From assembly GCF_003967275.1 (NCBI RefSeq), contig NZ_AP018721.1, positions 2,480,001 to 2,544,000 on the forward strand: a stretch of 64,000 bases of DNA, given 5' to 3'. Source of the stretch: Sulfuritortus calidifontis (GTDB lineage: Bacteria > Pseudomonadota > Gammaproteobacteria > Burkholderiales > Thiobacillaceae). The stretch's first letter is position 1, and every line of letters starts with the position of its first letter. Positions 25,857 to 44,666 of the stretch are shown piece by piece. The notes beneath the pieces are model-generated. The model saw only the letters and a list, made by a program, of their open reading frames with translations, searched no databases and was not told where the DNA came from. A program made the translations under genes and the position numbers.

Positions 25857-28475
25857 TTATTGGCCCGCCCAATGGTCGCGCCGGCACAGGCCGCGCATCT
25901 CGCAGCGGTCGCAGACCGGGCCGGCGCCCTGGGCCGGCAGGGCAGCACCCCCGGCCAGGGCGGCGAACACCGCCTGGAAGCGGGCGGCCTCGGCCGCGGC
26001 CGCCTCGGCCAGCCCCTCCTGCCAGGCCAGAACCGTCACCTTGTCCTCGTCGAGGGTGACGAAGCCGGCCTCGACCGCCTCGGTCAACCAGGCATAGCAA
26101 GGCAGTTGCACATCCTCGCCCGGCCGTTTGAGCTTCGCGCTGAGGCTGGCCTTGGATTGCGTCTTGTAATCGAGCACGGCCAGCCCGTCCGCGGCGCGGT
26201 CGAGCCGATCCAGCCGGCCCTCCAGTCGAATCTCCGCGTCGCCAACCCCCACCGCCAGTGCCGTCTTGGCCTCGGCCTTGGCAAAGCGGTGACCGGCCCG
26301 CTCCCAGGCCAGGGCCCAGTCGAGATAGGCCGCCTGCCGCCGCTGCCAGCGCAGACGCCAGGCCTCGGCCAGATACGACGTCAGCCCGGCCTCGGCGAAG
26401 GCCTCTTCCACGGCGCCGGCCAGGTCGGCCGCCAGGGTCGCCCGATCGAAATCGGCCAACACGGGGTGATCTTCGTGGAACTTCGCCAAAGCGGCGTGGA
26501 TCAAGGTGCCATATTCCCGCTTATCCATTTCCTCCGCCACCTCGTCCAGCTCGTTCAGGCCCAAGAGGTGCCGGGCATAGAAGCGGTAAGGGCAATCGAC
26601 CAGGCTCTGCCAGCCGCTGACGGTCACCCGCTCGGGCAGGCGATCGGCAAGAGGGGCCGGAACCTCGGCCGCAGACAACGCCGTCTCGGCGGCCGGCTCG
26701 ACCAGGGCCGGGGGCGAGCGCTTCAAGCTCACCCCGAAGCAGGCGCGATGATAGAGATCGAGCGTCTCCAGCCAGGGGCTCAGCGCCAGCGGCTCGCCGT
26801 CGCGCTCGGCCTGCCAGGTCGCCGCCACCCGCGGCGTGCGGCCGATCACATCGGCCAGCGCAGCCTGCAGCTCCGACTCCCGCTCGGCCTGGCCGGGCAG
26901 GCCGAGCTCCCGGCGCACCGCCTGGTTGAACAGGCCGGGCGATACCGTCTCCGGCAGGTGGCCGGCATCGGCACCCAGGATCAGCACGGCATTAAATTCA
27001 CGCAGCCGCGCGGCGCGCAAATGGGTGAAGCGGACCGGACTTTCGACCCGGGCATCGACGAAGGTGGCCTGGTCCAGCTGCAGCATCAGCCAACGCCGCC
27101 ATTCGGCGAAGCGATAGGGCGCGGCATCTCCCTGAAGCTCGCCTTGCAACCGCCGCAGCAGGGCGAGCAGTTGGCCGCCGGCCCAGTCCGCCTCGAGCGC
27201 CCGACGCACGCCGAGCTGCTCGAAGGCCCGTAGCAGGCGCTGCTGCCATTCGGCCAGGGGCAGGCGCTGGCCGGTGAACAAGCGGCGCGCCGCCTGCATG
27301 CGCTCGAGCAGGGGTTCGACCCCGGCCAAATTCGCCTGCCTCGCCAGTTGCTGGAAACGCCCCCAACCCTCGACCACCCCGGCCCGGCGCAGGGCCAGCT
27401 CCAGTTCGGCCACGGCCGCCGGCAGGACCTTTGGCGCCAGGTCGGCGAAGACAAAGGGCGACTTCAGGAAATCCAGCAGGTCGCGGTAATAGCAGTCGTC
27501 CTGGAGCAGACCGAACCAGCGGTCGAGCACATGGCTCACCGCCGCGGTGGAAAAGGTCCAGCCGGTCTCGTCCTGGACCAGGATGTCATGACGCTCCAAT
27601 CGGGCGCGCAGGCGACGGGCCGCCACCCGGTCGAGGGCGACGATGCCGATCGCCTCATGGCCCTCGGCCAGCCAGCGACGAATCTGCAGTTCGGCCGCCA
27701 CCGCCACCGCCTCCAGGCTGGCCGCCCCATAGAGGACCAGGTCATCCGTCAGCGGGCCGATGGCCGCAGCCGCCGCCTCACCCCCTACCCAGGCCGCATC
27801 GAGCACGGCCTGCCGTTCCGGATAGGCCAGGGGCAGGGCAAGTCCGCGCACCGGCTGCCGCACCGCATAGCGTTCGAGAAAACCCTGCTCCATGGCCGAG
27901 AGGCCGGGCAGAGGCAAGTGGTAGAGCGGCAGCGCGGCGCGCTCGGCCAGACAGGCCAGGCGCTCCGCATAATCGCGACCACTGTCTGGCCGGCCGCCTT
28001 GCTGCAAGGCATACCAAAGCTCATGCGCCAGTCGGGCCTCGAAACCCAGGGTCGCGTTGAGCCGGCGCCGATAGGCCGCCTCCAGCCGGCTGCGGAATTC
28101 GGCATAGTCGGCGGGCAGGGCAAGCTGGTTGTCGCTCAACTCCCGCATCAAGCCAGCCAGTTCGACGGCGGCCGGCCAGAGCTGCCGCTCCTGCAGGCGG
28201 CCGGTACGGCGGAGGAAACTGTAGATCTCGACCAGGCGCCGGCTGTCCGGCTCGGCCGCAGCACGGCCGGGCACGCCGACGGCCAGCGCCGGCAGGGTCA
28301 ACAAGCGGGGCGGCAGGACGACGCGGCCGGCCAGGGCCGTCTTGAGCCCGGCGAGAAACCCCTGGGCCGCCGCGTAGTGCGGCACCAGCACGGTCAGCGC
28401 GGAGAAGTCGGGCGCCCGCCCTGCCTCGAATTCGAGAAACTCGCGGACGGCGGAGACATAGGCAGCGGTCGGCAT
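25857..28475 (-). CDS. AddB-like PD-(D/E)XK exonuclease/helicase-fold protein
   Basis: An 872-residue protein resembling the AddB subunit of the AddAB recombination nuclease. The C-terminal nuclease has GRLDRLDRAADGLAVLDYKTQ-type motifs (Asp, then DYK) and the four iron-sulfur cysteines of AddB nucleases: one in VDCPYRFYARHLL and three in CDRCEMRGLC near the C-terminus. The N-terminal part has the inactive-helicase look of proteobacterial AddB, without a Walker A. The start at ATG 28475 is preferred over the upstream TTG at 28514. No addA is adjacent: gltB lies downstream and grxD is divergent. A hairpin with a T-run lies 52 bp upstream. Confidence 0.82.
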   Translation of the reverse strand: MPTAAYVSAVREFLEFEAGRAPDFSALTVLVPHYAAAQGFLAGLKTALAGRVVLPPRLLTLPALAVGVPGRAAAEPDSRRLVEIYSFLRRTGRLQERQLWPAAVELAGLMRELSDNQLALPADYAEFRSRLEAAYRRRLNATLGFEARLAHELWYALQQGGRPDSGRDYAERLACLAERAALPLYHLPLPGLSAMEQGFLERYAVRQPVRGLALPLAYPERQAVLDAAWVGGEAAAAAIGPLTDDLVLYGAASLEAVAVAAELQIRRWLAEGHEAIGIVALDRVAARRLRARLERHDILVQDETGWTFSTAAVSHVLDRWFGLLQDDCYYRDLLDFLKSPFVFADLAPKVLPAAVAELELALRRAGVVEGWGRFQQLARQANLAGVEPLLERMQAARRLFTGQRLPLAEWQQRLLRAFEQLGVRRALEADWAGGQLLALLRRLQGELQGDAAPYRFAEWRRWLMLQLDQATFVDARVESPVRFTHLRAARLREFNAVLILGADAGHLPETVSPGLFNQAVRRELGLPGQAERESELQAALADVIGRTPRVAATWQAERDGEPLALSPWLETLDLYHRACFGVSLKRSPPALVEPAAETALSAAEVPAPLADRLPERVTVSGWQSLVDCPYRFYARHLLGLNELDEVAEEMDKREYGTLIHAALAKFHEDHPVLADFDRATLAADLAGAVEEAFAEAGLTSYLAEAWRLRWQRRQAAYLDWALAWERAGHRFAKAEAKTALAVGVGDAEIRLEGRLDRLDRAADGLAVLDYKTQSKASLSAKLKRPGEDVQLPCYAWLTEAVEAGFVTLDEDKVTVLAWQEGLAEAAAAEAARFQAVFAALAGGAALPAQGAGPVCDRCEMRGLCRRDHWAGQ

Positions 28476-28527
28476 GGACGCATTATTGCAGGGCAGCCGC
28501 AACTCGGCAGGCAAAACGAGCGGAGCT

Positions 28528-28671
28528 AAAAAAAACCCCGGCCAGGCCGGGGTGAAGAGAGGAGGGTGTCGGCCAGCCTATACAAGCCCTTGGCCAACAT
28601 GCCTAGCGGTCGCCAGATGGCTCAAAACGACCGCCGGGACTTGGTGGAATGCATGGCATTCCGGAAATTGC
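28528..28671 (-). ncRNA. Candidate small RNA or attenuated leader upstream of the AddB-like gene
   Basis: The 343-bp gap between the AddB-like gene and grxD has no ORF but, on the minus strand, a promoter-like pair, about 140 nt of structured sequence and an intrinsic terminator. Stems seen by eye: GGAATG/CATTCC, GCGGTCG/CGACCGC and GGCCA/TGGCC. A CCCUCCUCUCUUC single-stranded stretch follows, which is complementary to Shine-Dalgarno-type sequence. The terminator has an 8-bp stem ACCCCGGC/GCCGGGGU with a 3-nt loop and a run of seven T's (28546 down to 28528). It could be an independent sRNA or a leader that attenuates the AddB-like gene 52 bp downstream. I do not recognise a known family. Confidence 0.5.
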
Positions 28672-28677
28672 GATATC

Positions 28678-28707
28678 AATGTACGAAATATTAACCGAGC
28701 CTGTCAA
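28678..28707 (-). promoter_or_regulatory. Sigma-70-type promoter for the candidate small RNA
   Basis: On the minus strand TTGACA (28707-28702, 6/6 to consensus), an 18-bp spacer, then TACATT (28683-28678, 4/6). Transcription would begin near 28671. No minus-strand gene other than the AddB-like one lies downstream, and an intrinsic terminator comes first. Confidence 0.55.
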
Positions 28708-28818
28708 ATGGTTATTAGCCCGGGAAACGAGAGAAACGGGCAGGCGTTGCATAGCCCCACTGGCCGCCCATATAATTACCCGACTAAATTAATCAGCTTT
28801 AGCCAGAGGTCGAAACAC

Positions 28819-29133
28819 ATGAGCATCCAAGACGTCATCCACGAACAAGTCACCAGCCACCCGGTCGTGCTCTACATGAAAGGCACGCCGCAATTCCCGC
28901 AGTGCGGCTTCTCGGCCACCGCGGCCCAGATCCTCAAGGCCTGCGGCGTCGGCGATTTCTATTCGGTCAACGTGCTGGAGAATCAGGAGATTCGCGAAGG
29001 CATCAAGCAGTACGCCAACTGGCCGACCATCCCCCAGCTCTACATCAAGGGCCAGTTCGTCGGCGGCGCCGACATCATGCGCGAGATGTTCCAGTCAGGC
29101 GAACTGCAGAAACTGCTGGCCGCCGCACAATAA
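28819..29133 (+). CDS. grxD: Monothiol glutaredoxin GrxD (Grx4)
   Basis: CGFS-type monothiol glutaredoxin, 104 residues, which in studied bacteria transfers or stores 2Fe-2S clusters with glutathione and BolA-type partners. The active site is C29-G-F-S32, the WP motif is ANWPTIPQLYIKG, and the glutathione loop is GGADIMREMF. The start ATG at 28819 is clear. It stands alone: the candidate sRNA lies upstream and the chemotaxis cluster begins 239 bp downstream. That 239-bp gap shows no ORF and only a weak stem (GCTGCCAGT/ACTGGCGGC) just after the stop. Confidence 0.95.
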   Translation: MSIQDVIHEQVTSHPVVLYMKGTPQFPQCGFSATAAQILKACGVGDFYSVNVLENQEIREGIKQYANWPTIPQLYIKGQFVGGADIMREMFQSGELQKLLAAAQ

Positions 29134-29372: not shown

Positions 29373-30539
29373 TTGAAATCCATCACAACATCCGGGACGA
29401 CCATCGCCGCGCTCGGATTGGCCGCGCTGGGCGCGGCCGCCTGGTTCATCGAGGTGCCGCTCTGGCGCGTTCTGGTCATTGCTGCCATCGGCCTGGCAGG
29501 CATTTTCTGGCTGCGCCGCAGCGCGACCTCGTCACGCGAGGAAACCGCCGCCGGCTCTCCGGTCGTCGACGACACCGAGGCCCAGGCCCTGGTCCACAGC
29601 CTGAATGCCGAATTCAGCGCCCTCTGCCAGGCCAGCACCGATGAACTGAACCGCGTCAGCGTCCTGCTCGCCGAGGCGATCGAGCGGCTGATCAACAACT
29701 TCAGCGGCATCAACCGGCTGGTCCGGAGCCAGCACGAGCTGACGCTGTCGATCACCCAGAGCACCACCGAGGGGCCGGACAACAAGATCGATTTCCACGC
29801 CTTCATCCAGAACACCTCGAACACCCTCGAGTCCTTCGTCGACAACACCCTGAACACCAGCAAGCTGGCCATGGGCCTGGTCGAGACCATGGATTCGATC
29901 AGCAATCAGGTGGCCTATATGCAGGGCATCCTGGGCGAGATCGAGGGCATCGCCAAGCAGACCAACCTGCTCGCGCTAAACGCCTCGATCGAGGCGGCGC
30001 GGGCCGGCGAGGCAGGCCGCGGCTTCGCCGTGGTGGCCGACGAGGTGCGCAACCTGTCCCTGCGCACCAACCAGTTCAGCCACGAGATCCGCGACCGCAT
30101 GGCCCAGGTCGAAAACTCCCTGGCCGGCGCGCACGAGGCCATCTATGCCGTCGCCTCGACCGACATGAACTTCGCCCTGCAGTCGAAACAGACCGTGCAG
30201 GACACCCTGCACCATGTCGAGGCGATGAGCTCGAACACCGCAGACGCGGCCGAACGGATCCACCGGCATGCCGATGAGGTCGCCACCTTGGTCAACGATG
30301 CCGTCACCGCCCTGCAGTTCCAGGACATGACCAGCCAGCTGCTCGCCCATACCCTGGGCCGCATCCACACCATTCAGGAAATGGCCCTGAGTGCCGATGA
30401 AGCTGTACGCAACGTCGGCAATCCCGAGGCCTTCCACAACGCCCGCAACCGCGCCTACGAAGCCCTGGAGCGCAATCGCGCCCGGCTCAACCCGGTCAGC
30501 CAGGGCAGCATGGACTCGGGCGAGGTCGAACTGTTCTAA
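29373..30539 (+). CDS. Short membrane MCP with a CheZ-like DxxxQ motif
   Basis: A 388-residue chemoreceptor-like protein that opens the chemotaxis cluster. Two hydrophobic segments (about 10-26 and 30-47) leave almost no periplasmic sensor. The signalling hairpin is present ([20 protein letters not shown], about 193-212, then [14 protein letters not shown]) but no HAMP is obvious. Near the C-terminus LQFQDMTSQ places Asp318 and Gln322 in the DxxxQ spacing of the CheZ phosphatase (Asp143/Gln147, FQDLTGQ). The tail ends GEVELF, like CheD here. The start is TTG at 29373 with a GAGGGG site. No cheZ is in the cluster, so a receptor with phosphatase function is a plausible but unproven reading. Confidence 0.8.
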
Positions 30540-30544
30540 AGCCA

Positions 30545-31392
30545 AAAAGTTAGGTAATACCTAACCAAACTGGACCAAATCTGGAAGGATTTGGTCATGA
30601 AGAAATGCCCTGGTTGTGGCTACAGTCGACTGTATCAGTTGGCTGATGGCCGCCACAAATGCAAACGCTGCGGCCATCGCTTTCGCTGGCGTAGCGCGTG
30701 GTCGGCCAGCCGGCTGAGCGACGCCACCAAGCACGAACTGCTGCGTCGCTTCGTTTGGGGCGTGCCGGTTTACCGGCAGCGCTTCGGCGCCTTGGCCAGT
30801 GCGCCGGCGATCGAACGCTTTTACCGGCTGGTGCGTGCTTGCATGGCGTGGGCGGAGGAGTTCCGAGAACCCTTTGCCGGGGCGGTCGAATGCGACGAGA
30901 CCACATTTGGCGGGGCTCGGCACGGCAAACGGGGCTGGGGTGCGGTCGGCAAAGTGATCGTGTTTGGCATCGTCAAGCGCAACGGCCAAGTCAAGGCGAT
31001 GCCGATCGCGGCTCACAGCCGGGCAGAGGTGATGCGCCACATCCAGGCCCATACCCGGGAGGGCGCGTTGTACTACACCGACGAGTGGCAAGCTTACGCG
31101 ACACTGAAGCTGCGGGGTGAGCACGTGGTGATCCGCAAGGAGAAAGGCAAGCCGGTGGGGCGGGACCATATCAACGGCATCGAGGGCTTCTGGAGCTATG
31201 CCAAGAACTGGTTGTATCCTTACCGGGGAGTGCCTCGCAAATACTTCCATCTTTACCTTGGGGAAGTTTGTTACCGTTTCAACCACCGGACTGATGACCT
31301 GAAACCCTTGCTGGTCAAGCTTCTCAAGACCACCAGCATCCAGGATATCAGCCCAAAATTGGTCCAGATTCGTTAGGAATTACCAAAAGTTA
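30545..31392. mobile_element. IS1595-family (ISXO2-like) insertion sequence with 8-bp target duplication
   Basis: The element spans 30553-31384 (832 bp). The ends are imperfect inverted repeats of about 32 bp (GGTAATACCTAACCAAACTG against GGTAATTCCTAACGAATCTG). A perfect direct repeat AAAAGTTA flanks it (30545-30552 and 31385-31392); 8-bp duplications are normal for this family. It contains one intact transposase gene. The preserved duplication suggests a fairly recent insertion. Without it, the short MCP and cheY would be 29 bp apart. Confidence 0.95.
30597..31376 (+). CDS. IS1595-family transposase (ISXO2-like)
   Basis: A 259-residue transposase filling the insertion sequence. An N-terminal zinc ribbon is present (CPGCGYSRLYQL, then CKRCG). 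The DDE-type core shows VECDETTFGG, ALYYTDEWQAY and HINGIEGFWSYAKNWLYPYRG, the pattern of the ISXO2-like DDE domain. The ATG at 30597 is preferred over the TTG at 30591. No frameshift or stop is seen, so it may be active. The last codons run into the right terminal repeat. Confidence 0.94.
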   Translation: MKKCPGCGYSRLYQLADGRHKCKRCGHRFRWRSAWSASRLSDATKHELLRRFVWGVPVYRQRFGALASAPAIERFYRLVRACMAWAEEFREPFAGAVECDETTFGGARHGKRGWGAVGKVIVFGIVKRNGQVKAMPIAAHSRAEVMRHIQAHTREGALYYTDEWQAYATLKLRGEHVVIRKEKGKPVGRDHINGIEGFWSYAKNWLYPYRGVPRKYFHLYLGEVCYRFNHRTDDLKPLLVKLLKTTSIQDISPKLVQIR

Positions 31393-31408: not shown

Positions 31409-31774
31409 ATGGGCAAAGTCGTACTGACCGTTGACGATTCCGCATCCATTCGCCAGATGGTGTCGTTCACGCTGAAAAGCGCCGGCTACGAAGTGGTCGA
31501 GGCCGTCGACGGCGAGGACGGCCTGAACAAGGCCAAAACCAAGGCCGCCGACCTGGTGCTGACCGACCAGAACATGCCGAAGATGGACGGCATCACCCTG
31601 ATCAAGACCCTGCGCGGCCTGCCCCAGTACAAATCGACGCCCATCCTGGTGCTGACCACCGAGTCGTCCGACGCCATGAAAACGGCCGGCCGTTCGGCCG
31701 GCGCCACCGGCTGGCTGGTCAAGCCCTTCGACCCGCAAAAGCTGCTGGACGTCGTGAAAAAAGTGATCGGCTGA
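31409..31774 (+). CDS. cheY: Chemotaxis response regulator CheY
   Basis: Single-domain receiver of 121 residues that is phosphorylated by CheA and signals to the motor. The acidic pair is Asp9/Asp10, the phosphoacceptor is Asp53 (LTDQNMPKMDG), Thr in LVLTTESSD and Lys in WLVKPFDP complete the active site. It is preceded by a good ribosome site (GAGAGAGGTGAG). It now lies 24 bp after the IS end; originally it was closely linked to the short MCP gene. CheA follows 39 bp downstream. Confidence 0.93.
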   Translation: MGKVVLTVDDSASIRQMVSFTLKSAGYEVVEAVDGEDGLNKAKTKAADLVLTDQNMPKMDGITLIKTLRGLPQYKSTPILVLTTESSDAMKTAGRSAGATGWLVKPFDPQKLLDVVKKVIG

Positions 31775-31813: not shown

Positions 31814-34144
31814 ATGGCCATCGACATGAGCCAGTTCTACCAGGTCTTCTTCGAAGAGGCGAAGGAGCATCTGGACAATATGGAAAGCCTGCTGCTCGCG
31901 CTCGACGTGGACGCCCCTTCGCTCGACGACCTCAACGCCATCTTCCGGGCCGCCCACTCGATCAAAGGCGGCAGCGGCACCTTCGGCTTCACCGACATGA
32001 CCGAGGTGACCCATGTCCTGGAGACCCTGCTCGACCGCCTGCGCAAGGGCGAACTGCAACCGACCACGGAGATGGTCGACGCCTTCCTGACTGCCGGCGA
32101 TGTGCTGCGGGCGCAACTGGAACACCATCAGGGCGGCCCCGAGGCCGATCCGGCGGCCATCGCAGACGTCTGTCAGCGACTCGAACACCTGGCCAGCGAC
32201 GAAACGCCCGCCGCCAGCGAAACCGCATCCAGCCCCATGGCGGCCGCACATCCGGTCTGCCACTACCGCATCGAATGCCCGCTCGCCCTTGAGCTGGCAG
32301 GCAACGAGCAGGCCATCGACAACCTGATCGCCGGCCTGGGCGAACTGGCCGCGATCGAGGTGGAGCATCGCCCGACCCCCGCCGATCCCCGCCTGGTTGC
32401 GCTGCTGACCACCGACAAGCAGCCGGCCGAATTGCGCGATGCCCTGGACTTCTACGCCTCCGGCGACGATATCGCCATTCACCCGGTCGACGCTGCGGCA
32501 ACCGCTGCCGAGGACGAGGGCTACGGCTTCTTCGTGGAGATCGCCAACGAGCCGGCCGGCGCCGGCGAAGGATTTAGTACCAGCGTAACGCCGGCTGCGC
32601 CGGCATTAGCCTCCACTGAAACTGAAGGTTTTGGTTTCTTCGACGAGGCGCCCGGCGCACCGGCGAGCGCAACCGCCACCGAGGGTTACGGCTTCTTCGA
32701 CGCCGCGCCGGGCGCCCCGGCCAATGCGCCGGCTGCTGTCCACGAAGAGGCAGGCTTCGGCCTGTTTCTCGATGCCCCCGGTGCCGGCGGTGCGTCCGCC
32801 AGCCCGGCGCCGGCCGCACCGGCTACCGCACCTGCCGCGCCGCCAGCCAGCCAGGCCGGCCGCCGCGCCAGCGACAACCCAAGCGTGGAGGTGGCCAAGA
32901 CCGGCCGGCGCGAGGCCGACAAGACCAGCACGACCAGCAGCGCCGAATCCAGCATCCGGGTTTCGGTCGAAAAGGTCGACCAGCTGATCAACCTGGTCGG
33001 CGAGCTGGTGATCACCCAGGCCATGCTAGCCCAGTCGACCCAGCATCTGGACCCGGTCGAGGCCGAGCGCATCCTGGCCGGCATCGACCTGCTCGCGCGC
33101 AACACCCGCGACCTGCAGGAATCGGTGATGTCGATCCGCATGCTGCCGATGAGCACGGTCTTCTCCCGCTTCCCGCGGGTGGTGCGCGATCTGGCCGGCA
33201 AGCTGGGCAAACAGGTTGAACTCAAGACCCTGGGCGAGAACACCGAGCTGGACAAGGGCTTGATCGAAAAGATCGCCGACCCGCTGACCCACCTGGTGCG
33301 CAACAGCCTGGACCACGGCATCGAGACACCGGAAAAACGTCTGGCCGCCGGCAAGCCGGCCAAGGGCACCATCACCCTCAAGGCCGCGCATCAGGGCGGC
33401 AATATCATCATCGAGGTCATCGACGACGGCGCCGGCCTCAATCGCGAGCGCATCCTGAACAAGGCGAAGGAGCGCGGTCTGGCGGTGCACGATAACATGC
33501 CCGACCAGGAGGTCTGGCAGCTCATCTTCGCCCCCGGCTTCTCCACCGCCGAACAGATCACCGATGTCTCCGGCCGCGGTGTCGGCATGGACGTGGTCAA
33601 GCGCAACATCGAGGGCATGGGCGGCAAGGTCGAACTGCACTCGGCCGAGGGCTTCGGCACCCGCACCGTGATCGGTCTGCCACTGACCCTGGCCATCCTC
33701 GACGGCATGTCGGTCGGGGTCGGCGACGAGACCTACATCGTGCCGCTCACCCTTGTGATCGAGTCGCTGCAACCGGCCGCCGACGACATCAAGACCATCG
33801 CCGGCGAAGGCCGCGTGGTGCACATCCGCGGCGAATACCTGCCGCTGATCCCGCTCGGCGCCGTGTTCAACCTGGAGCGCGCGCTGGACGACCCGACCCG
33901 CGGCATCGTCATGGTGGTCGAGGTCGAAAACGGCAAGGCGGCGCTGTTCGTCGACGAGCTGCTGGGCCAGCACCAGGTGGTGATCAAGAGCCTGGAGAGC
34001 AACTACCGCAAGGTGCCCGGCGTTTCCGGCGCCACCATCATGGGCGATGGCCGGGTCGCGCTGATCCTGGACATCGCCGCCGTCGCCCGCATGGGCTTGC
34101 AGATCAACCGCAGGAAATACGGCCAGAACCAGCTGGCCGCCTAA
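31814..34144 (+). CDS. cheA: Chemotaxis histidine kinase CheA
   Basis: Core kinase of the chemotaxis array; 776 residues. The P1 Hpt domain has the phosphorylated His48 ([15 protein letters not shown]). A P2-like region (about 150-225) is followed by a low-complexity linker with four copies of a (E/A)G(Y/F)G(F/L)F motif at 235-240, 271-276, 290-295 and 313-318, the last three each followed by an (A)PGA run. Dimerisation ([18 protein letters not shown]), the HATPase domain (N-box [21 protein letters not shown]) and the CheW-like P5 end the protein. It is tightly spaced with cheY upstream and cheW downstream. Confidence 0.95.
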
Positions 34145-34158
34145 ATCGGGGAAGCGCT

Positions 34159-34644
34159 ATGGAACAGATGGAACAGAGCATGGCCGCCGCCTCGGGCGAA
34201 TACCTCACCTTCGTCCTGGGCAAGGAAGAGTACGGCATCGACATCCTCAAGGTGCAGGAGATTCGCGGCTACGAGGCGCCGACCACCATCGCCAATGCCC
34301 CGGCCTTCCTCAAGGGCGTGATCAATCTGCGCGGCGTCATCGTCCCGATCATCGACCTGCGGATCAAGTTCAACCTGGGCGAGCCGACCTATGACCAGTT
34401 CACCGTGGTCATCATCCTCAATGTGGCCAACCGCATCGTCGGCATCGTGGTCGACGGTGTCTCCGACGTCATCCAGCTGAACAGTGACACCCTGCGTCCC
34501 GCGCCGGACTTCAGCTCCACCCTGGATGCCCGCTACATTATCGGCCTCGGCACCCTCGATCAGCGAATGATCATCGTGGTCGACATCGAAAAGCTCATGA
34601 CCAGCCAGGACATGGCCCTGGTCGAAGAAGCCGCTGCGAGCTGA
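34159..34644 (+). CDS. cheW: Chemotaxis adaptor CheW
   Basis: Scaffold protein joining receptors to CheA, 161 residues, single CheW domain. Conserved segments are [51 protein letters not shown] (several beta-strands), then [13 protein letters not shown] and [21 protein letters not shown]. It starts 14 bp after cheA and is followed 13 bp later by the first large MCP gene, so it is clearly part of the operon. Confidence 0.95.
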
Positions 34645-34657
34645 GCAGGAGACCGCG

Positions 34658-37000
34658 ATGCGCACCAATCTTCCTGTCACCAACGTCGAGCACAAGCTGC
34701 GCCCCGGCGAATTCATCGTCTCCACGACCGACCGCAAGGGCCTGATCACCTACGTCAACCCGACCTTCGTCGAGATCAGCGGCTTCACCGAACAGGAACT
34801 GATCGGCGCCCCGCACAACATCGTGCGTCACCCGGACATGCCGCCCCCGGCCTTCGCCGACCTCTGGACCACCCTGGAGAAAGGCAAGCCCTGGAGCGGA
34901 CTGGTCAAGAACCGCTGCAAGAACGGCGATTACTATTGGGTGCGAGCCAACGCCGCCCCCATCTGGCAGGGCGACAGCATCGCCGGCTACATCTCGGTGC
35001 GCACCGCCCCGAGCGATGCCGAGATCGCCGCGGCCGAGGCCATCTACCGCGCCGTGCGCGATGGCCGCGCCGGCAAGGTCATGGTCCTGGAAGGCGCCGT
35101 GGTCTCCGCCCGCGTCCCGGCCGTGATCTGGCGGCGGATCACCACCTCCTCGCTGAAGGCACGCCTGATCGCGCTCATCGCCATCACCGGCGGCCTGCCC
35201 TTGCTGTCCAGCCTGCTGCTGGATGGCATGACCGCCATCGCCCTGAACGCCATCAGCCTGGCCGCAGGCGCCTTGATCGGCATCTGGGCCTATCGCGACG
35301 TGAGCCGACCCCTGGCCAAGGCGGTCAAGGACATGACCCAGATCTCCCAGGGCCACATGGACGTCGCCACCCTGGCCGGCGCCGACAACGAGGTCGGCCA
35401 CGCGCTGTCGGCGCTCAAGGCCCTGCACATCCGGGTCGGCTTCGACCTGGCCGAAACCAAGCGGGTGGCGGAGGAGGCGCTTCGGATCAAGATTGGTCTG
35501 GACAACGTGAGCACCGGGGTGATGATTGCCGACACCGAGCGCAAGATCATCTACGTGAACAAGTCGGTGGTCGACATCCTGTCCCGCGCCGAGGACGACA
35601 TCAAGAAGCAGCTGCCCAACTTCTCGGCCAAGACCCTGGTCGGCACCAACATCGACGTGTTCCACAAGAACCCGGCCCACCAAGCCCAGCTACTGGCCAA
35701 CCTGAACGGCACCCACAGCGCGGCGCTGACCATCGGTCCGCGCAGCATGGTGGTGCGCGCCAGCCCGGTGATCAACGAGCGCGGCCAGCGCCTGGGCGCC
35801 GTGGCCGAGTGGACCGACCGCACGGCCGAAGTGGCGGTGGAGAAGGAAGTGGCCGAGCTGGTCAACGCCGCCGCGGCCGGCGACTTCAGCCGCCGGCTGA
35901 ACCCGGCCGGCAAGGAAGGCTTCTTCCTGCAACTGGCCGAGGGCATCAACAAGCTGGTCGAGACCTCCGAGCGCGGCATGAACGACGTGGCCGAGGTGCT
36001 CAAGGCCCTGTCCGAAGGCGACCTGACCCGCCAGATGGAAGGCGACTACGAAGGCCTGTTCGCCGAGCTCAAGGACAGCGCCAACACCACCAGCTCGCGC
36101 CTGCGCGAGATCGTCGGCCAGATTCGCGAGGCGACCGACGCCATCAACACCGCCGCCCGCGAGATCGCCACCGGCAACGCCGACCTCTCGAGCCGGACCG
36201 AGAGCCAGGCCTCTTCTCTGGAGGAGACCGCCTCCAGCATGGACGAGCTGACCAGCACGGTGAAACAGAACGCCGACAACGCCCGCCAGGCCAACCAGCT
36301 GGCCCAGGGTGCCTCCGACATCGCGGTCAAGGGCGGCGAGATGGTGGGCGAGGTGGTGCAGACCATGAGCGCGATCTCCGAGAGCTCGAGCAAGATCGCC
36401 GACATCATCAGCGTGATCGACGGCATCGCCTTCCAGACCAACATCCTGGCGCTGAACGCGGCGGTGGAGGCGGCCCGGGCCGGCGAACAGGGTCGCGGCT
36501 TCGCCGTGGTCGCCGGCGAGGTGCGCAATCTGGCCCAGAGGAGTGCGGCCGCCGCCAAGGAGATCAAGCAGCTGATCAACGACTCGGTGGACAAGGTCGA
36601 TGCCGGCTACAAGGTGGTCGAGCAGGCCGGCAACACCATGCAGGAGATCGTGCAGTCGGTGAAGCGGGTGACCGACATCATGGCCGAGATCAACGCGGCC
36701 TCGACCGAGCAGAGCCAGGGCATCGAGCAGGTCAATGCGGCGGTGGCCCAGATGGACGAGATGACCCAGCAGAACGCCGCCCTGGTCGAGCAGGCGGCCG
36801 CTGCCGCCGAGTCCTTGCAGGACCAGGCCGACGGCCTGGCCCAGGCGGTGGCGGTGTTCAAGGTCGGCGGCGGTGCCGGCAGCCTGGCCGCCCCGCGTCA
36901 GGCCGTGACCCGGGCGCCCCAGCCGTCCCGCCCCGCGCCCAGGCCGGCCTCCCGTCCCGCCACGGCCGCCACCGACGAGGATGAATGGCAGGAGTTCTGA
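34658..37000 (+). CDS. Aer-like PAS-containing methyl-accepting chemotaxis protein
   Basis: A 780-residue receptor without a periplasmic domain. An N-terminal PAS (about 15-120) with the Aer-type motif RHPDMP precedes a hydrophobic hairpin (about 169-213), a HAMP-like helix, a second PAS (about 280-385) and the MCP signalling hairpin ([23 protein letters not shown]). The first PAS is of the redox/FAD type in Aer, so energy taxis is possible. The tail ends DEDEWQEF: a WxxF tether for CheR/CheB. From residue 273 to the end it is identical or nearly so to the next MCP. It follows cheW by 13 bp. Confidence 0.92.
35474..37000 (+). repeat. 1527-bp repeat, copy 1 (3' part of first large MCP gene)
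   Basis: First copy of a direct repeat whose second copy is at 38368-39894 (constant offset 2894 bp). It encodes the second PAS, HAMP region, signalling domain and tether. I see one base difference (C in copy 1, T in copy 2, near the 5' end of the repeat) and no indels. Homology stops exactly after the TGA stop codon. Confidence 0.93.
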
Positions 37001-37086: not shown

Positions 37087-39894
37087 ATGCGCGTCAACAT
37101 GCCAGTCACCGGAAGGGAATATGTCCTGCGCGACGATCACATGATCGTGTCCAAGACCGACACGCGCGGCATCATCACCTACATCAACAAGGACTTCCTC
37201 GAAGTTTCCGGCTTCACCGAAGAAGAGCTGATCGGTGCGCCGCACAACATCGTGCGCCACCCGGACATGCCGCCCGAGGCCTTCGCCGACCTCTGGGAGA
37301 CCCTGCAGAAGGGCATGCCCTGGACCGCCATGGTCAAGAACCGTTGCAAGAACGGCGACCACTATTGGGTGCTGGCCAACGCCGCGCCGATCCGCGAAGG
37401 CGGCCAGGTGGTCGGCTACATGTCGGTACGCAGCAAGCCCACCCCGCAGCAGATCGAAGCGGCCAGCCGTATCTACGCCTCGATCAAGGCCGGCGAAAAA
37501 ACCTGGAAGGTGGTGCACGGCCGGGTCGAGAAGAACACCCCGCTGTCCAGGCTCAAGCTGCTCAAGAACATCAGCATCAAGGGCCGCCTGGCCAGCATGG
37601 TCGGTCTGGCCAGTCTGCTGTTGCTCGCGGTCGGCGGCCTCGGCCTGTTCGGCCTCAACCAGTCAAACGAGGATCTGCGCGGTGTCTATGAGGACCACAC
37701 CATCGCCCTCGGCCAACTCGATCGAATCACGCGCAACCTGGTCAACAACCGGCTGAACATGGCCGAGACCCTGCTCGACCCCAGCCCCGAGAGCGTCCGC
37801 AGTCACCTGGCCGACACCGAAAAGCGGATCGATGAGATCAACAAAACCTGGGAGGCCTACATGGCCGTCGACCGGCCACCGGAGGAGAGGACCGCGGCCG
37901 AGCAGTTCGCCGCCGATCGGACACGTTTCGTCAAGGAAGGCCTGCGGCCGACCATGGAAGCCCTGCGCGCAGGCCAGATCAACGAAGCGCGCCAGCTCTA
38001 TGGCAAGCTCGACGAGCTATTCAAACCGGTACGCAAGAGCATCAATGGCCTGATCGACCGGCAGCTCGAAGCTGCCAACGCCGCCCATGAGGCCTCCGGC
38101 GAGCGCTATGCCACGATCCGAAACCTGAGCATCGCCGCCATCGTCCTAGGCTTGACCTTGCTGGTCGCCATGGGCGCGATCCTGATCCGCGTCATCACCC
38201 GGCCGCTCAACCGCGCAGTCGAGGTGTTCAACAACATCTCCGGCGGCAACTACAAGAACCATATCGAGATCGAGCACGAGGACGAGGTCGGCAGCGTGCT
38301 CAACGCCCTGCGTTCGATGCAGACCAAGATGGGCTTCGACGTGGCCGAGACCCAGCGCGTCGCCGACGAGGCGCTTCGGATCAAGATTGGTCTGGACAAC
38401 GTGAGCACTGGGGTGATGATTGCCGACACCGAGCGCAAGATCATCTACGTGAACAAGTCGGTGGTCGACATCCTGTCCCGCGCCGAGGACGACATCAAGA
38501 AGCAGCTGCCCAACTTCTCGGCCAAGACCCTGGTCGGCACCAACATCGACGTGTTCCACAAGAACCCGGCCCACCAAGCCCAGCTACTGGCCAACCTGAA
38601 CGGCACCCACAGCGCGGCGCTGACCATCGGTCCGCGCAGCATGGTGGTGCGCGCCAGCCCGGTGATCAACGAGCGCGGCCAGCGCCTGGGCGCCGTGGCC
38701 GAGTGGACCGACCGCACGGCCGAAGTGGCGGTGGAGAAGGAAGTGGCCGAGCTGGTCAACGCCGCCGCGGCCGGCGACTTCAGCCGCCGGCTGAACCCGG
38801 CCGGCAAGGAAGGCTTCTTCCTGCAACTGGCCGAGGGCATCAACAAGCTGGTCGAGACCTCCGAGCGCGGCATGAACGACGTGGCCGAGGTGCTCAAGGC
38901 CCTGTCCGAAGGCGACCTGACCCGCCAGATGGAAGGCGACTACGAAGGCCTGTTCGCCGAGCTCAAGGACAGCGCCAACACCACCAGCTCGCGCCTGCGC
39001 GAGATCGTCGGCCAGATTCGCGAGGCGACCGACGCCATCAACACCGCCGCCCGCGAGATCGCCACCGGCAACGCCGACCTCTCGAGCCGGACCGAGAGCC
39101 AGGCCTCTTCTCTGGAGGAGACCGCCTCCAGCATGGACGAGCTGACCAGCACGGTGAAACAGAACGCCGACAACGCCCGCCAGGCCAACCAGCTGGCCCA
39201 GGGTGCCTCCGACATCGCGGTCAAGGGCGGCGAGATGGTGGGCGAGGTGGTGCAGACCATGAGCGCGATCTCCGAGAGCTCGAGCAAGATCGCCGACATC
39301 ATCAGCGTGATCGACGGCATCGCCTTCCAGACCAACATCCTGGCGCTGAACGCGGCGGTGGAGGCGGCCCGGGCCGGCGAACAGGGTCGCGGCTTCGCCG
39401 TGGTCGCCGGCGAGGTGCGCAATCTGGCCCAGAGGAGTGCGGCCGCCGCCAAGGAGATCAAGCAGCTGATCAACGACTCGGTGGACAAGGTCGATGCCGG
39501 CTACAAGGTGGTCGAGCAGGCCGGCAACACCATGCAGGAGATCGTGCAGTCGGTGAAGCGGGTGACCGACATCATGGCCGAGATCAACGCGGCCTCGACC
39601 GAGCAGAGCCAGGGCATCGAGCAGGTCAATGCGGCGGTGGCCCAGATGGACGAGATGACCCAGCAGAACGCCGCCCTGGTCGAGCAGGCGGCCGCTGCCG
39701 CCGAGTCCTTGCAGGACCAGGCCGACGGCCTGGCCCAGGCGGTGGCGGTGTTCAAGGTCGGCGGCGGTGCCGGCAGCCTGGCCGCCCCGCGTCAGGCCGT
39801 GACCCGGGCGCCCCAGCCGTCCCGCCCCGCGCCCAGGCCGGCCTCCCGTCCCGCCACGGCCGCCACCGACGAGGATGAATGGCAGGAGTTCTGA
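37087..39894 (+). CDS. Transmembrane PAS/four-helix-bundle methyl-accepting chemotaxis protein
   Basis: A 935-residue receptor. An Aer-like N-terminal PAS (about 15-120) is followed by TM1 (about 167-190), a periplasmic helical bundle of about 155 residues (191-345), TM2 (346-369), HAMP, a second PAS and the MCP signalling domain with a WxxF tether at the C-terminus (EDEWQEF). Residues 428-935 match residues 273-780 of the preceding MCP. The cytoplasmic PAS before a periplasmic sensor gives it two possible sensing sites. The ribosome site is strong (GAGGAGG), 86 bp after the previous stop. Confidence 0.92.
38368..39894 (+). repeat. 1527-bp repeat, copy 2 (3' part of second large MCP gene)
   Basis: Second copy of the direct repeat starting at 35474. 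The 5' portions of the two genes are clearly homologous in the first PAS (both have [15 protein letters not shown]) but well diverged, whereas this half is essentially identical, including synonymous sites. That contrast points to recent gene conversion or a partial duplication. Confidence 0.93.
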
Positions 39895-39979: not shown

Positions 39980-40846
39980 ATGGCGATCAGCAATTTCCCC
40001 GGCAACCGGGCAGACCGCGAGTTCGATTTCACCCAGCGCGACTTCGAAGAGGTGCGCAAGCTGATCTATGCGCATGCCGGCATCAGCCTGTCGGATGCCA
40101 AGGTCGACATGGTCTACAGCCGCCTCGCCCGCCGGTTGCGGGCGACCGGCCTGACCACCTTCCAGGATTATCTGGCGCTGCTCAGGGGCAACGACGAGGC
40201 CGAATGGGAGGCCTTCGTCAATTCCCTGACCACCAACCTCACCTCGTTCTTCCGTGAGGCACACCACTTCACCATCCTCAAGGATTTCCTCAAGCAGCGG
40301 CGCGAGCGCCCGATCAACATCTGGTGCTGCGCCTCGTCGACCGGCGAGGAGCCCTATTCGATCGCGATGACCGCGATCGAGAGTCTCGGCGACGGCGCCG
40401 GCACGGCGGTCAAGATCCAGGCCTCCGACCTCGACACCAACGTCCTGCGCAAGGCCCAGGATGGCATCTATCCGATCGATCGGATCAGCAAGCTGTCCGA
40501 GGCCCAGCAGCGTCGTTTCTTCCTCAAGGGCACCGGCGGCAAGGAAGGCATGGCCCGGGTGCGGCCGGAGCTGCAGGGCATGATCAACTATTTCCGGCTC
40601 AACCTGCTGGACAAGCACTGGTCGGTGAAAGGCCCGCTGGATGCCATCTTCTGCCGCAACGTCATGATCTATTTCGACAAGCCGACCCAGTACAAGATCC
40701 TGCAGCAGATGAAGCCGCTCTTGAAGCCGGACGGCCTGCTCTTCCTCGGCCACTCCGAGGCGCTCTACCACGCCTCCGACTTGTTCCGCCTGCGCGGCCA
40801 GACCGTCTACGTCCACGCCGAGGCCGCCGGGAAGGGGCACAAATGA
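39980..40846 (+). CDS. cheR: Chemotaxis glutamate O-methyltransferase CheR
   Basis: S-adenosylmethionine-dependent methyltransferase that methylates MCP glutamates for adaptation; 288 residues. An N-terminal helical domain (about 15-85) precedes the Rossmann core with WCCASSTGEEPYSIAM (AdoMet motif I), ASDLDTNVLRKAQ, and IFCRNVMIYFD. CheR beta-subdomain contacts with WxxF tethers are plausible given the receptors encoded upstream. Its TGA overlaps the cheD start (ATGA). Confidence 0.95.
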   Translation: MAISNFPGNRADREFDFTQRDFEEVRKLIYAHAGISLSDAKVDMVYSRLARRLRATGLTTFQDYLALLRGNDEAEWEAFVNSLTTNLTSFFREAHHFTILKDFLKQRRERPINIWCCASSTGEEPYSIAMTAIESLGDGAGTAVKIQASDLDTNVLRKAQDGIYPIDRISKLSEAQQRRFFLKGTGGKEGMARVRPELQGMINYFRLNLLDKHWSVKGPLDAIFCRNVMIYFDKPTQYKILQQMKPLLKPDGLLFLGHSEALYHASDLFRLRGQTVYVHAEAAGKGHK

Positions 40847-41451
40847 GCCACCCGGCCTACGAGGAAGTCCTCGCCCCGACCCAGTATTACGACCGCAATT
40901 TCCAGATCGAGGCGGCCAAGATCCTGCCCGGCGAGTACTACGTGACCGGCCGCGACATGCTGCTGGTGACGGTGCTCGGCTCCTGCGTGGCGGCCTGCGT
41001 GCGCGACCCGAAGACCGGCATCGGCGGCATGAACCATTTCATGCTGCCCGAAAGCGGCGATGCCGCCAACGTGTTGTCATCCTCCGCCCGCTATGGCGGC
41101 TACGCCATGGAGATGCTGATCAACCAGCTGATCAAGCTGGGCGCCAGCCGCAGCCGGCTCGAGGCCAAGGTCTTTGGTGGCGCCGCCGTGCTGCGCGGCT
41201 TCACCACGGTCAACGTCGGCGAAAGCAACAGCGATTTCGTGCTCGACTACCTGAGCAATGAAAAGATTCGCGTCGTCTCCCAGGACCTGCGCGGCCTCTA
41301 CCCGCGCAAGGTCTATTTCTTCCCCGCCAGCGGCCGGGTGCTGGTCAAGACCCTGAAGACCGTGCACAACAACACCATTGTCGAGCGCGAGAAGGAATAC
41401 GGCAGCCGCCTCAAGTCGTCCACCATCGCCGGCGACGTGGAGCTGTTCTGA
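40843..41451 (+). CDS. cheD: Chemoreceptor glutamine deamidase CheD
   Basis: Deamidates receptor glutamines and assists adaptation; 202 residues from ATG 40843, which overlaps the cheR stop. The catalytic region is TVLGSCVAACVRDPKTGIGGMNHFMLP, with the Cys and His of the CheD family, followed by ARYGGYAMEMLINQLIKLGA and VFGGAAVL. The C-terminus ends AGDVELF, nearly the same as the GEVELF end of the short MCP at the head of the cluster. No cheC is present, although CheC is the CheD partner in Bacillus. Confidence 0.94.
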   Translation: MSHPAYEEVLAPTQYYDRNFQIEAAKILPGEYYVTGRDMLLVTVLGSCVAACVRDPKTGIGGMNHFMLPESGDAANVLSSSARYGGYAMEMLINQLIKLGASRSRLEAKVFGGAAVLRGFTTVNVGESNSDFVLDYLSNEKIRVVSQDLRGLYPRKVYFFPASGRVLVKTLKTVHNNTIVEREKEYGSRLKSSTIAGDVELF

Positions 41452-41498: not shown

Positions 41499-42548
41499 AT
41501 GTTCAAAATCAAAGTCCTCATCATCGACGACTCCGCGCTGATCCGCAGTGTGCTCAAGGAGCTGATCAACAGCCAGCCCGACATGGAGGTAGTCGGTGTC
41601 GCGCCCGATCCCTACGCCGCGCGCGAGCTGATCAAAGAGACCAATCCCGACGTGCTCACCCTCGATGTCGAGATGCCGAAGATGAATGGCCTCGAGTTTC
41701 TCGAGAAACTGATGCGCCTGCGGCCGATGCCGGTGGTGATGATCTCGACCCTGACCGAGGAAGGCTCCAACGTCACCCTCAAGGCCCTGGAACTGGGCGC
41801 GGTGGATTTCATCACCAAACCCAAGCTGGGCGTGACCGAGGGCATGCAGACGCTGACCGACGACATCGTCGGTCGCATCCGCATCGCGGCGCAGGCCCGC
41901 ATCCGCCGGCACAGCGCCAGCACCGTGGCGCCGAATCGGCCGCAGCCGATCAGCGGCCACATCCTGCATACCACGGAGAAGGTAATCTTCATCGGTTCCT
42001 CGACCGGCGGCACCGAGGCGCTGAAGGAGGTGCTGACCCGGATGCCGGCCGATGCCCCGGCGATCATGATGACCCAGCACATGCCGGAGACCTTCACCCA
42101 GTCCTTCGCCCAGCGATTGAACAGCCTGTCGGCCATGACCGTGAAAGAGGCCGTGCATAACGAACGGATCATGCCCGGCCATGCCTACCTGGCGCCGGGT
42201 CACTCGCATCTCCTGGTCCGCCGCAGCGGCGCCTACTACTACGCCGAGCTGTCGCAGGCGGCACCGGTCAACCGCCACCGGCCCTCGGTCGACGTCCTGT
42301 TCAACAGCGCCGCCCAGGCGGTCGGCGCCAACGCCATCGGCGTCATGCTCACCGGCATGGGCCGCGACGGCGCAGCGGGCATGCTGGCCATGCGCGAGGC
42401 CGGGGCCTACACCATCGCCCAGGACGAAGCGAGCTGTGTGGTCTACGGCATGCCCAAGGCGGCGGTGGAGGTCGGCGCCGTGCAGGAAGTGGCGCCGCTA
42501 CAGAACATCGCCGGGCGCATCCTCGACCGGCTGGCGCAGCGTGGCTGA
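41499..42548 (+). CDS. cheB: Chemotaxis methylesterase/glutaminase CheB
   Basis: Response-regulator methylesterase, 349 residues. The receiver domain has Asp10/Asp11 and phosphoacceptor Asp56 ([16 protein letters not shown]). After a linker (about 125-155) the catalytic domain shows [11 protein letters not shown] (nucleophile Ser in SSTGG), [17 protein letters not shown] and [13 protein letters not shown] (catalytic Asp). It starts 47 bp after cheD and completes the adaptation set CheR-CheD-CheB. Confidence 0.95.
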
Positions 42549-42965: not shown

Positions 42966-44666
42966 ATGCGACCGCTCAAGGTCCTGATCGTCGACGACAC
43001 CCTGGCCAACGCCAAGCTGGTCGAGACTGTCGTCAACCGCCTGGGCCACACCTCGATCCTGGCCGAAAACGGCCAGCGCGCCCTCGATCTGTTCGAATCC
43101 GAGCAGCCCGACCTGGTGCTGATGGACGTGATGATGCCGGTGATGGATGGCATCACCGCCACCCAGGCCCTGCGTGCCCGCCTGCGCAGCCTCAATAGAT
43201 GGGTGCCGATCCTCCTGCTGTCAGCCCTCGACGACATCAGCGACATCGTGCGCGGCCTCGAGGCCGGCGCCGACGACTATGTGGTCAAGCCGGTCAACAT
43301 CCAGCTGCTCAAGGCCAAGCTGCAGAACTTCACCCACCAGGTCGAGATGCAGGAACAGATCCTGCGGCACACGGCCGAACTGGAACACTGGCACGCCATG
43401 GCCCAGCAGCAGTCCGAGCTGGGCAGCCACATCATGGACCGCCTGATCAACGCCGGCGGCGTCAGCAACGCCCTGGTCAGCCAGTTCAACATCCCGGCCG
43501 ACACCTTCAGCGGCGACCTGATCTGCGCCGCGCGCACACCGGACGACATCACCCATCTGCTGCTGGCCGACGCCACCGGCCACGGTCTGCCGGCGGCGCT
43601 GAGCGCCATCCCCATCGCCGGCGCCTTCTATCGGATGACCGAAAAGGGCTTCCCGATCTCCAGTATCGCCCGCGAGATGAATACCAAGCTGCGCCAGTTT
43701 CTGCCGGCCGACCGCTTCGTCGCCGCCACCCTGGCCGCGATCGACGTCAAGGACCAGGTGATCGAGGTCTGGAACGGTGGCAATCCCAGCGCCCTGCTGA
43801 TCGGCGCGAGTGGCAATCTGCTCAAGGACTGGCCTTCGCAGCACCCGCCGCTCGGCGTGCTGCCCGAGGCGGCGTTCTCCGAACTGGTCGAGACCATCAG
43901 CTACAAGGAAGACTGCAACCTGTTGATCTGTTCCGACGGCCTCTGGGAAGCGGAAAGTCCCAGCGGCCAGCGCATCGACCGCGGGCGCATCCTCGACCTG
44001 TTCGCCGCGACCGACAAGGATCAACACCTGACAGGCCTGCAGTCACTGGTGCAAAACCACTTGGCCGGGGCTCCCGCCCTGGACGACATCTCCGGCCTGC
44101 TGGCCTGGATTCCCATCGAGCGCCGGGCCGTGCCGCGCGTCGAGGGCGGCCAGGCAAAGCCCCATCTCTCGCACAAGGGCGAATGGCACCTGGCCATCTC
44201 CTACTGGGCTGACGAATTGAAATACCTCGACGTCGTGCCCGACCTGCTGGACCTGATCTGCCAGGTCCAGGTGTTGAAGCCGCACAAGAGTTCGCTGTTC
44301 ATCGTCCTCTCAGAGCTGTTCAACAACGCCCTCGATCACGGCTTGCTCGGGCTCGACTCCAAGCTGAAGGCGAGCGGCGACTTCGAACAATACATGCAAC
44401 AACGGGAGGCCAGGCTGACTGAGTTGGATGACGGCCGGATCGACATCAGCTTCTGGCTGCACAACAGCGACGACGCGACTGTGCTCGATATCAAGCTGAC
44501 CGACAGTGGCGACGGCTTCGATTACGAGCGGTATCTGGATGAAGAAAGCCTGCTCAGACAGACCGCGCTGCCGCACGGCCGTGGCCTGGCCCTGGTCCGC
44601 AGCCTGTGCAGCCAGCTGCGCTATGCCGGCAGCGGCAACCAGGTGATCGCCCGCTACGTTTTGTAA
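42966..44666 (+). CDS. REC-PP2C-HATPase partner-switching response regulator
   Basis: A 566-residue protein with three modules. The receiver (1-120) has Asp10/Asp11 and phosphoacceptor Asp54. A short coiled coil (about 125-150) leads to a SpoIIE/RsbU-type PP2C phosphatase (about 170-385; FSGDLICAART, LLADATGHGLPAALSA, LICSDGLWEAES). The C-terminal RsbW-like GHKL kinase (about 425-565) has the N-box LSELFNNALDHGLLG, then KLTDSGDGFD and GRGLALVRSLC. The same layout occurs in HsbR of Pseudomonas and CrsR of Shewanella, which switch anti-sigma antagonists. The neighbouring STAS protein is the likely substrate; CheA could phosphorylate the receiver. Confidence 0.9.
   Translation: MRPLKVLIVDDTLANAKLVETVVNRLGHTSILAENGQRALDLFESEQPDLVLMDVMMPVMDGITATQALRARLRSLNRWVPILLLSALDDISDIVRGLEAGADDYVVKPVNIQLLKAKLQNFTHQVEMQEQILRHTAELEHWHAMAQQQSELGSHIMDRLINAGGVSNALVSQFNIPADTFSGDLICAARTPDDITHLLLADATGHGLPAALSAIPIAGAFYRMTEKGFPISSIAREMNTKLRQFLPADRFVAATLAAIDVKDQVIEVWNGGNPSALLIGASGNLLKDWPSQHPPLGVLPEAAFSELVETISYKEDCNLLICSDGLWEAESPSGQRIDRGRILDLFAATDKDQHLTGLQSLVQNHLAGAPALDDISGLLAWIPIERRAVPRVEGGQAKPHLSHKGEWHLAISYWADELKYLDVVPDLLDLICQVQVLKPHKSSLFIVLSELFNNALDHGLLGLDSKLKASGDFEQYMQQREARLTELDDGRIDISFWLHNSDDATVLDIKLTDSGDGFDYERYLDEESLLRQTALPHGRGLALVRSLCSQLRYAGSGNQVIARYVL

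Follow-up and report, generated by a model that had tools for sequence, protein, structure and literature searches.

The window that we analysed, a stretch of 64,000 nucleotides from Sulfuritortus calidifontis, holds a chemosensory gene cluster of the F7 type, the lineage that gave rise to the chemotaxis system of E. coli, and every gene named below for this cluster lies on the forward strand. The gene under study (29373-30539, TTG start) encodes a chemoreceptor of 388 amino acids and is followed by an IS1595-type insertion, cheY (31409-31774), cheA (31814-34144), cheW (34159-34644), two PAS receptor genes (34658-37000 and 37087-39894), cheR (39980-40846), cheD (40843-41451), cheB (41499-42548) and a gene for an RsbU-like protein (42966-44666), in which Pfam recognises a receiver, a SpoIIE (PP2C) phosphatase and a HATPase domain and which is a possible second output or receiver; cheW, cheR and cheB were labelled from their sequence and position. 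The succession cheY-cheA-cheW-aer2/mcp-cheR-cheD-cheB matches the F7 order given by Ortega et al. (PMC7184735). The first PAS receptor carries an EWQEF tether and occupies the Aer2-like position, while the second combines PAS with TarH; the two are identical over their C-terminal halves, for more than 500 residues, which suggests a recent duplication or gene conversion. Upstream of the receptor gene lies a monothiol glutaredoxin gene (28474-29133) that is kept in many loci of Hydrogenophilaceae and Thiobacillaceae.

The insertion between the receptor gene and cheY, recognised by its terminal inverted repeats and by the Pfam family DDE_Tnp_IS1595, measures 832 bp (30553-31384), with repeats at 30553-30580 and 31357-31384 and a transposase gene at 30591-31376. 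It is flanked by an 8-bp target duplication, AAAAGTTA, at 30545-30552 and 31385-31392. Removal of the element and of one copy of the duplication leaves 29 bp between the stop codon of the receptor gene and the ATG of cheY, and given the duplications and this empty site the reconstruction of the original spacing is exact, as the initial annotation had proposed when it put the two genes about 29 bp apart. The element now lies between the receptor gene and cheY-cheA, where it may exert a polar effect on the operon.

The receptor matches Pfam MCPsignal (PF00015, E=2e-29), and its AlphaFold2 model, a monomer built with 109 homologues as input (mean pLDDT 82.5), shows helices at residues 3-25 and 30-50, a further helix at 67-131, a loop, a hairpin at 141-346 and, after residue 346, a short helix with a loose tail; a Foldseek search with this model returned chemoreceptors. 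Since the first two helices, which are hydrophobic in sequence, are joined by about four residues, they form a membrane anchor (residues 3-50, 29379-29522) with almost no periplasmic part. The anchor, the signalling hairpin and the near lack of a periplasmic domain that had been read from the sequence at the outset are thus all borne out. Within this framework, the helix of residues 67-131 (29571-29765) is common to the stand-alone proteins described below, the MCP signalling hairpin proper (residues ~141-290, 29793-30242) is missing from them, and the sequence LQFQDMTSQ (30312-30338), translated exactly as first annotated, places Asp318 (30324-30326) and Gln322 (30336-30338) near the C-terminus, which ends in GEVELF (30519-30536). 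By position and sequence we assign the protein as the McpA/CttP-like receptor of the F7 cluster. As described in PMC7184735, McpA-like F7 receptors such as PA0180 (McpA/CttP) of Pseudomonas aeruginosa and VCA1088 of Vibrio cholerae have in common with the 388-residue protein an MCP hairpin, a transmembrane anchor, a conserved C-terminus, location in an F7 cluster and the lack of a CheR-binding pentapeptide; the conserved GEVELF end likewise holds no [HFYW]-x2-[HFYW] pentapeptide. That work calls the C-terminus highly conserved and its role "important yet unclear"; its cryo-electron tomography shows that the F7 array does not need McpA-like receptors, and association of these receptors with the F6 array is also reported there. 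In the open-access literature that we searched, McpA/CttP was not found joined to a CheZ motif, a DxxxQ site, a separable module or stand-alone forms.

Homologues of the receptor were found at E<1e-50 in 48 of 200 genomes of the order Burkholderiales and a C-terminal profile detected them in 82 of the 369 genomes sampled from the class, counts that rest on drawn samples and are not a census; public genomes, among them Pseudomonas nitroreducens and Azospira, hold 546 or more stretches with a homologue. The layout recurs in a Vibrio record (THAF191d), where the motif reads LQFTDIIVQ and the tail GEVELF. Almost every betaproteobacterial locus has cheY and then cheA directly downstream of the receptor gene, and in gammaproteobacteria mcpA often stands after cheB or ahead of STAS and RsbU-like genes, an association with STAS and RsbU-like genes that PMC7184735 also describes for F7 stage 1. 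Fewer than two recognisable che genes were in reach at 28 of the 60 gammaproteobacterial loci examined, some of which adjoin STAS or RsbU genes instead; such absences of neighbours hold for the stretch examined, and some clusters end at contig edges. Examples of gammaproteobacterial mcpA genes that stand apart from recognisable F7 che genes are L216 and L218, followed by a STAS-like gene, and L200, L204, L206, L207, L225, L226, L243 and L247, followed by an RsbU-like gene.

Leaving aside the hairpin tip, the part that binds CheA and CheW in receptors generally, four columns alone never vary across 168 full-length members of the family, namely Gln315, Asp318, Gln322 and the terminal Phe388, and inspection of the exceptions listed among 173 unique family hits found Asp and Gln kept in every one. 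The residue before the aspartate varies (Q, E, G or D), as do the three residues between Asp and Gln, and most of an F-[QEGH]-D-[LIM] context is kept; fixed D and Q in variable surroundings are what a catalytic pair shows, and a rigid repeat does not. The strict motif occurs in one of 1313 ORFs that are neither McpA nor CheZ, and at +90 to +140 from the hairpin tip in none of 74 other MCPs.

The catalytic residues of E. coli CheZ (PF04344; structure 1KMI), Asp143 and Gln147, sit in FQD[LI]TGQ. The CheZ profile scores the receptor at 16.3 bits over residues 269-336, below the curated cut-off of 30.7. Aligned profile to profile with hhalign, the two motifs fall in register across ~65 columns at E-values between 7e-5 and 4e-4, where an Aer2 control gives 0.06, and with the nine motif residues masked the E-value rises to 0.04-0.05, the level of the control; because masking removes the signal, we reject full homology of the McpA base to CheZ. 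The proposed kinship with CheZ thus stands for the register of the motif, and nothing is detectable beyond its nine residues. Outside the motif the hydrophobicity patterns agree best at register 0 (r=0.59, 29 shifts), the hydrophobic face switches at the motif in both proteins, and a similar number of residues separates Asp from the C-terminus (for the most part 66-81 in McpA, 70-86 in CheZ). The McpA module and CheZ therefore have in common FQD[LIM]xxQ, the spacing and helical phase of D and Q, the C-terminal distance and linkage to cheY, whereas the module falls below the Pfam cut-off, forms part of either a membrane receptor or a smaller free protein, and ends in a GD[IV]ELF tail in place of the C-terminal CheY-binding helix of CheZ (VDDLLxSLGF), which is absent from the McpA family. 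Foldseek found no match to the CheZ fold for the monomer model of the receptor or for that of a stand-alone relative, the latter being weak (pLDDT 65) and returning nothing at E<0.001. That a CheY phosphatase can be cryptic has a precedent in CheT of Sinorhizobium meliloti, a DxxxQ protein without sequence relation to CheZ that its description (PMC12654446) reports as an active phosphatase of one of two CheYs; that description also sets it apart, as an alphaproteobacterial, CheR-binding protein with a CheZ-like predicted fold.

The initial annotation had spoken of a cluster without cheZ, cheC or cheX. Among the cluster proteins scanned, CheC, CheX and FliY gave no match, and the F7 cluster is indeed without cheZ, but the betaproteobacterial genome (2.72 Mb, single contig), which has Hydrogenophilaceae as its closest named relatives, carries two CheZ-family genes elsewhere, so that the cluster lacks cheZ and the organism has it; the view that the organism has no CheZ is rejected. 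One of the two encodes a canonical CheZ (253 bits); its neighbours are a cheY, whose product is 37% identical to the CheY of the F7 cluster, and a second cheA. The other (L002, G000:C1:279600-280070) is a 175-residue relative with FQDLVGQ and the C-terminus SQDDIDDLFG; it adjoins thioredoxin and molybdopterin-oxidoreductase-like genes and has relatives in two further genomes (G043, G088). Of the 82 genomes with the McpA family that were checked, 79 have cheZ, namely 32 of 32 betaproteobacterial and 47 of 50 mostly gammaproteobacterial ones; the three that do not are G267, G281 and G443, and the last two are also without FliM. According to PMC7184735, clusters of F7 stages 1-2 have cheY and no cheZ, which occurs there only with F6.

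The main new result, read from sequence, is a set of stand-alone relatives of the module in F7 clusters that would be counted as devoid of McpA. They are proteins of 150-210 amino acids without the signalling hairpin and usually without the anchor, they keep D, Q and the tail, and most of them are encoded directly upstream of the F7 cheY. When their profile is aligned with that of McpA (hhalign, E=2.1e-27), both ends align and the whole signalling hairpin appears as a clean gap. In two gammaproteobacterial genomes, proteins of ~190 residues ending in GEIELF and GDVTLF stand at the mcpA position with neither MCP hairpin nor anchor (L246, which is the same locus as L348, and L249); origin by frameshift or truncation was rejected for both, as the upstream genes end in their own stop codons and the short form is conserved through a whole genus. 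Three loci (L081, L106, L116) were left out as they are likely to be broken or cut receptors. Within the genus to which G015 belongs, 37-38 sampled genomes carry the free form at ~47-60% identity. Further free forms lie just upstream of cheY in L330, L331, L332, L333, L335, L336, L340 and the L341 group, that of L340 with a membrane-like N-terminus. Over 29 aligned free forms the invariant residues are A53, L57, Q116, F117, D119, Q123, G186 and F191, and in L332, outside this alignment, the motif reads LQSHDLVNQ, so that the Phe is lost with D and Q kept. Fifteen more F7 cheY loci (63-81% identity), drawn from genomes without a strict McpA match, have a stand-alone protein or a full receptor directly upstream in 11 cases, the other four being L349, L350, L359 and L362. 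At five F7 cheY loci (L378, L380, L381, L382, L329) neither immediate neighbour of cheY is a DxxxQ gene, and two of these five, in G111 (L349/L378) and G054 (L350/L380), have CheZ-CheY6 in or beside the F7 cluster; a further locus (L334) showed no F7 cheY and no DxxxQ gene beside its cheY6-cheZ. On the CheA tree the free form needs six changes, at least five of them forced by supported branches, and a single clade is rejected. The hairpin-less relatives and these repeated changes together make the DxxxQ module a unit of its own.

None of the stand-alone proteins matches Pfam or NCBIfam above cut-off, and one from a Comamonadaceae plasmid (UST52441.1; LQSEDALVQ, tail GSIDLF) is annotated as a hypothetical protein. 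A tblastn search of plasmids with one stand-alone query gave no match. In a Comamonadaceae plasmid F7 cluster (L393), a 158-residue hypothetical protein is encoded at 4899-5375, between two receiver genes.

The tail of the receptor points to a second relationship. The pattern [DE]-[VI]-[DE]-L-F-stop occurs twice in the whole genome, in the receptor (30519-30539) and in the CheD of the same cluster (41431-41451), which ends in GDVELF, and in McpA-family loci 35 of 39 distinct CheD ends are of the GD[VI]ELF type; aberrant CheD ends (L198, L205) co-occur with receptors of aberrant ends. Because the tail of CheD persists in most F7 clusters that have no full McpA, we reject McpA itself as the partner of the tail. 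From the sequences, receptor and CheD are likely to have a common docking partner, and one may guess at the F7 CheY as a candidate. A comparable arrangement is found beside a second class of CheY (46-54% identity), where a receptor with LQFQDRVSQ or LQFQDRVGQ is encoded directly upstream of cheY (L364-L368, L370, L372, L375, L376), with cheA-cheW-cheR-cheD-cheB clusters of its own (L384-L389). Like McpA, these receptors join an MCP region, a DxxxQ helix and a short tail ending in Phe; they differ in the class of CheY and CheA and in the tail, S[DE]ITFF or similar. The arrangement of receptor, DxxxQ and tail is therefore not limited to F7.

Since residues of the kind that switch CheY off are invariant and the module is kept beside cheY after loss of the sensor, it is a strong candidate for the off switch of F7. 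We consider that the McpA base, built into a receptor or free, is predicted to be a dedicated DxxxQ phosphatase for F7 CheY-P, a reading to which we give a probability of roughly 0.6. In CheZ the glutamine (Gln147) positions a water molecule and the acidic residue pairs with the active-site lysine of CheY (PMC3035606), and the F7 CheY keeps the equivalents of N59, E89 and this lysine, K109; its alpha4 surface is altered, K92 being replaced by D or E (D at position 92 in the window). Applied to the McpA base, the CheZ mechanism would pair Asp318 with the active-site lysine of phosphorylated F7 CheY and have Gln322 place a water molecule at the aspartyl phosphate. The module would consist of the N-terminal helix and a C-terminal helix with L-Q-F-Q-D-x-x-x-Q, followed by a linker and the GD[IV]ELF tail, which might hold CheY or another partner. 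F7 CheA would make CheY-P, and the protein encoded beside cheY, not the CheZ of F6, would switch it off. In the receptor form the module would be joined to the membrane and to the CheA/CheW-binding hairpin, which might localise or gate it, and in other lineages it would act as a free protein of 150-210 residues. Were the hairpin to gate the phosphatase, one receptor dimer could control both the making of CheY-P, through CheA, and its breaking. Catalysis, F7 CheY-P as substrate and control by the hairpin are what we infer from these analogies. The proposal that a receptor doubles as the CheY phosphatase hence retains its invariant CheZ-type site, its cheY directly downstream and its cluster without cheZ, to which the free-standing modules are added, and loses the argument from the absence of CheZ. 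In favour of a phosphatase also speak the cheZ-less F7 clusters of stages 1-2, the three family genomes that have no cheZ, and L334, where neither an F7 cheY nor an adjoining DxxxQ gene is seen. Against it weigh the loss of the CheZ signal on masking, the want of a CheZ fold match for either model, the missing CheY-binding helix, a tail common to CheD, which is no phosphatase, the coexistence of CheZ in most McpA-family genomes, the five F7 cheY loci with no DxxxQ neighbour, and the gammaproteobacterial loci with few che genes in reach.

The module could serve as a phosphatase or binding site for a receiver other than F7 CheY, such as that of the RsbU-like receiver-PP2C protein, which is the main alternative substrate, CheB or the motor CheY of F6. 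The RsbU-like protein of the window does have a receiver domain, STAS and RsbU-like genes often come after mcpA in gammaproteobacteria, and the reported association of McpA with the F6 array (PMC7184735) would suit the motor CheY; we nevertheless regard this as unlikely, as the conserved neighbour in betaproteobacteria is cheY and not rsbU, and F7 clusters with a stand-alone protein, such as L331, L335 and L336, gave no RsbU-like hit in the stretch examined. The invariant site and the tail in common with CheD would also suit non-catalytic binding of CheY-P, the module being a sink or a scaffold that brings F7 CheY to the receptor or to CheD. Simple docking would not demand the retention of the two catalytic-type residues together with most of their F-[QEGH]-D-[LIM] surroundings, and CheT, likewise a DxxxQ protein, is reported to be an active phosphatase (PMC12654446), which together make this account rather improbable.

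A purely structural or adaptational role in the receptor, as a helix break, a trimer contact or part of a methylation region with no link to CheY, can appeal to the stand-alone model (pLDDT 65), where the helix breaks at the Gln just before the motif, and to the switch of the amphipathic face there. It does not account for the persistence of D, Q and tail through repeated loss of the signalling hairpin, nor for the absence of the motif at the matching place in all 74 other receptors, and we hold it to be very improbable. That an ordinary short chemoreceptor merely resembles CheZ by chance, for which the confinement of the likeness to nine residues might speak, has a negligible probability and is rejected as regards the motif, given its conservation in 168 of 168 sequences and the background counts in ORFs and MCPs.

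If the McpA base is indeed a phosphatase, this would explain the role of McpA-like receptors and the conservation of their C-terminus, and it would supply the missing off switch of early F7 clusters, which have cheY without cheZ; published work leaves open what F7 served before it took over the motor. It is tempting to go further and to suppose a new family of DxxxQ response-regulator phosphatases, in receptor-base and free-standing formats, that ends the output of F7 and of one or more other systems, the latter through the LQFQDRVSQ receptors, a suggestion that we regard as possible and advance tentatively. With the stand-alone proteins, unrecognised by Pfam and NCBIfam, the phosphatase idea can be tested directly on small proteins, and the distance of the module from known families, together with the tail that it has in common with CheD, offers a route to the output partner of F7.
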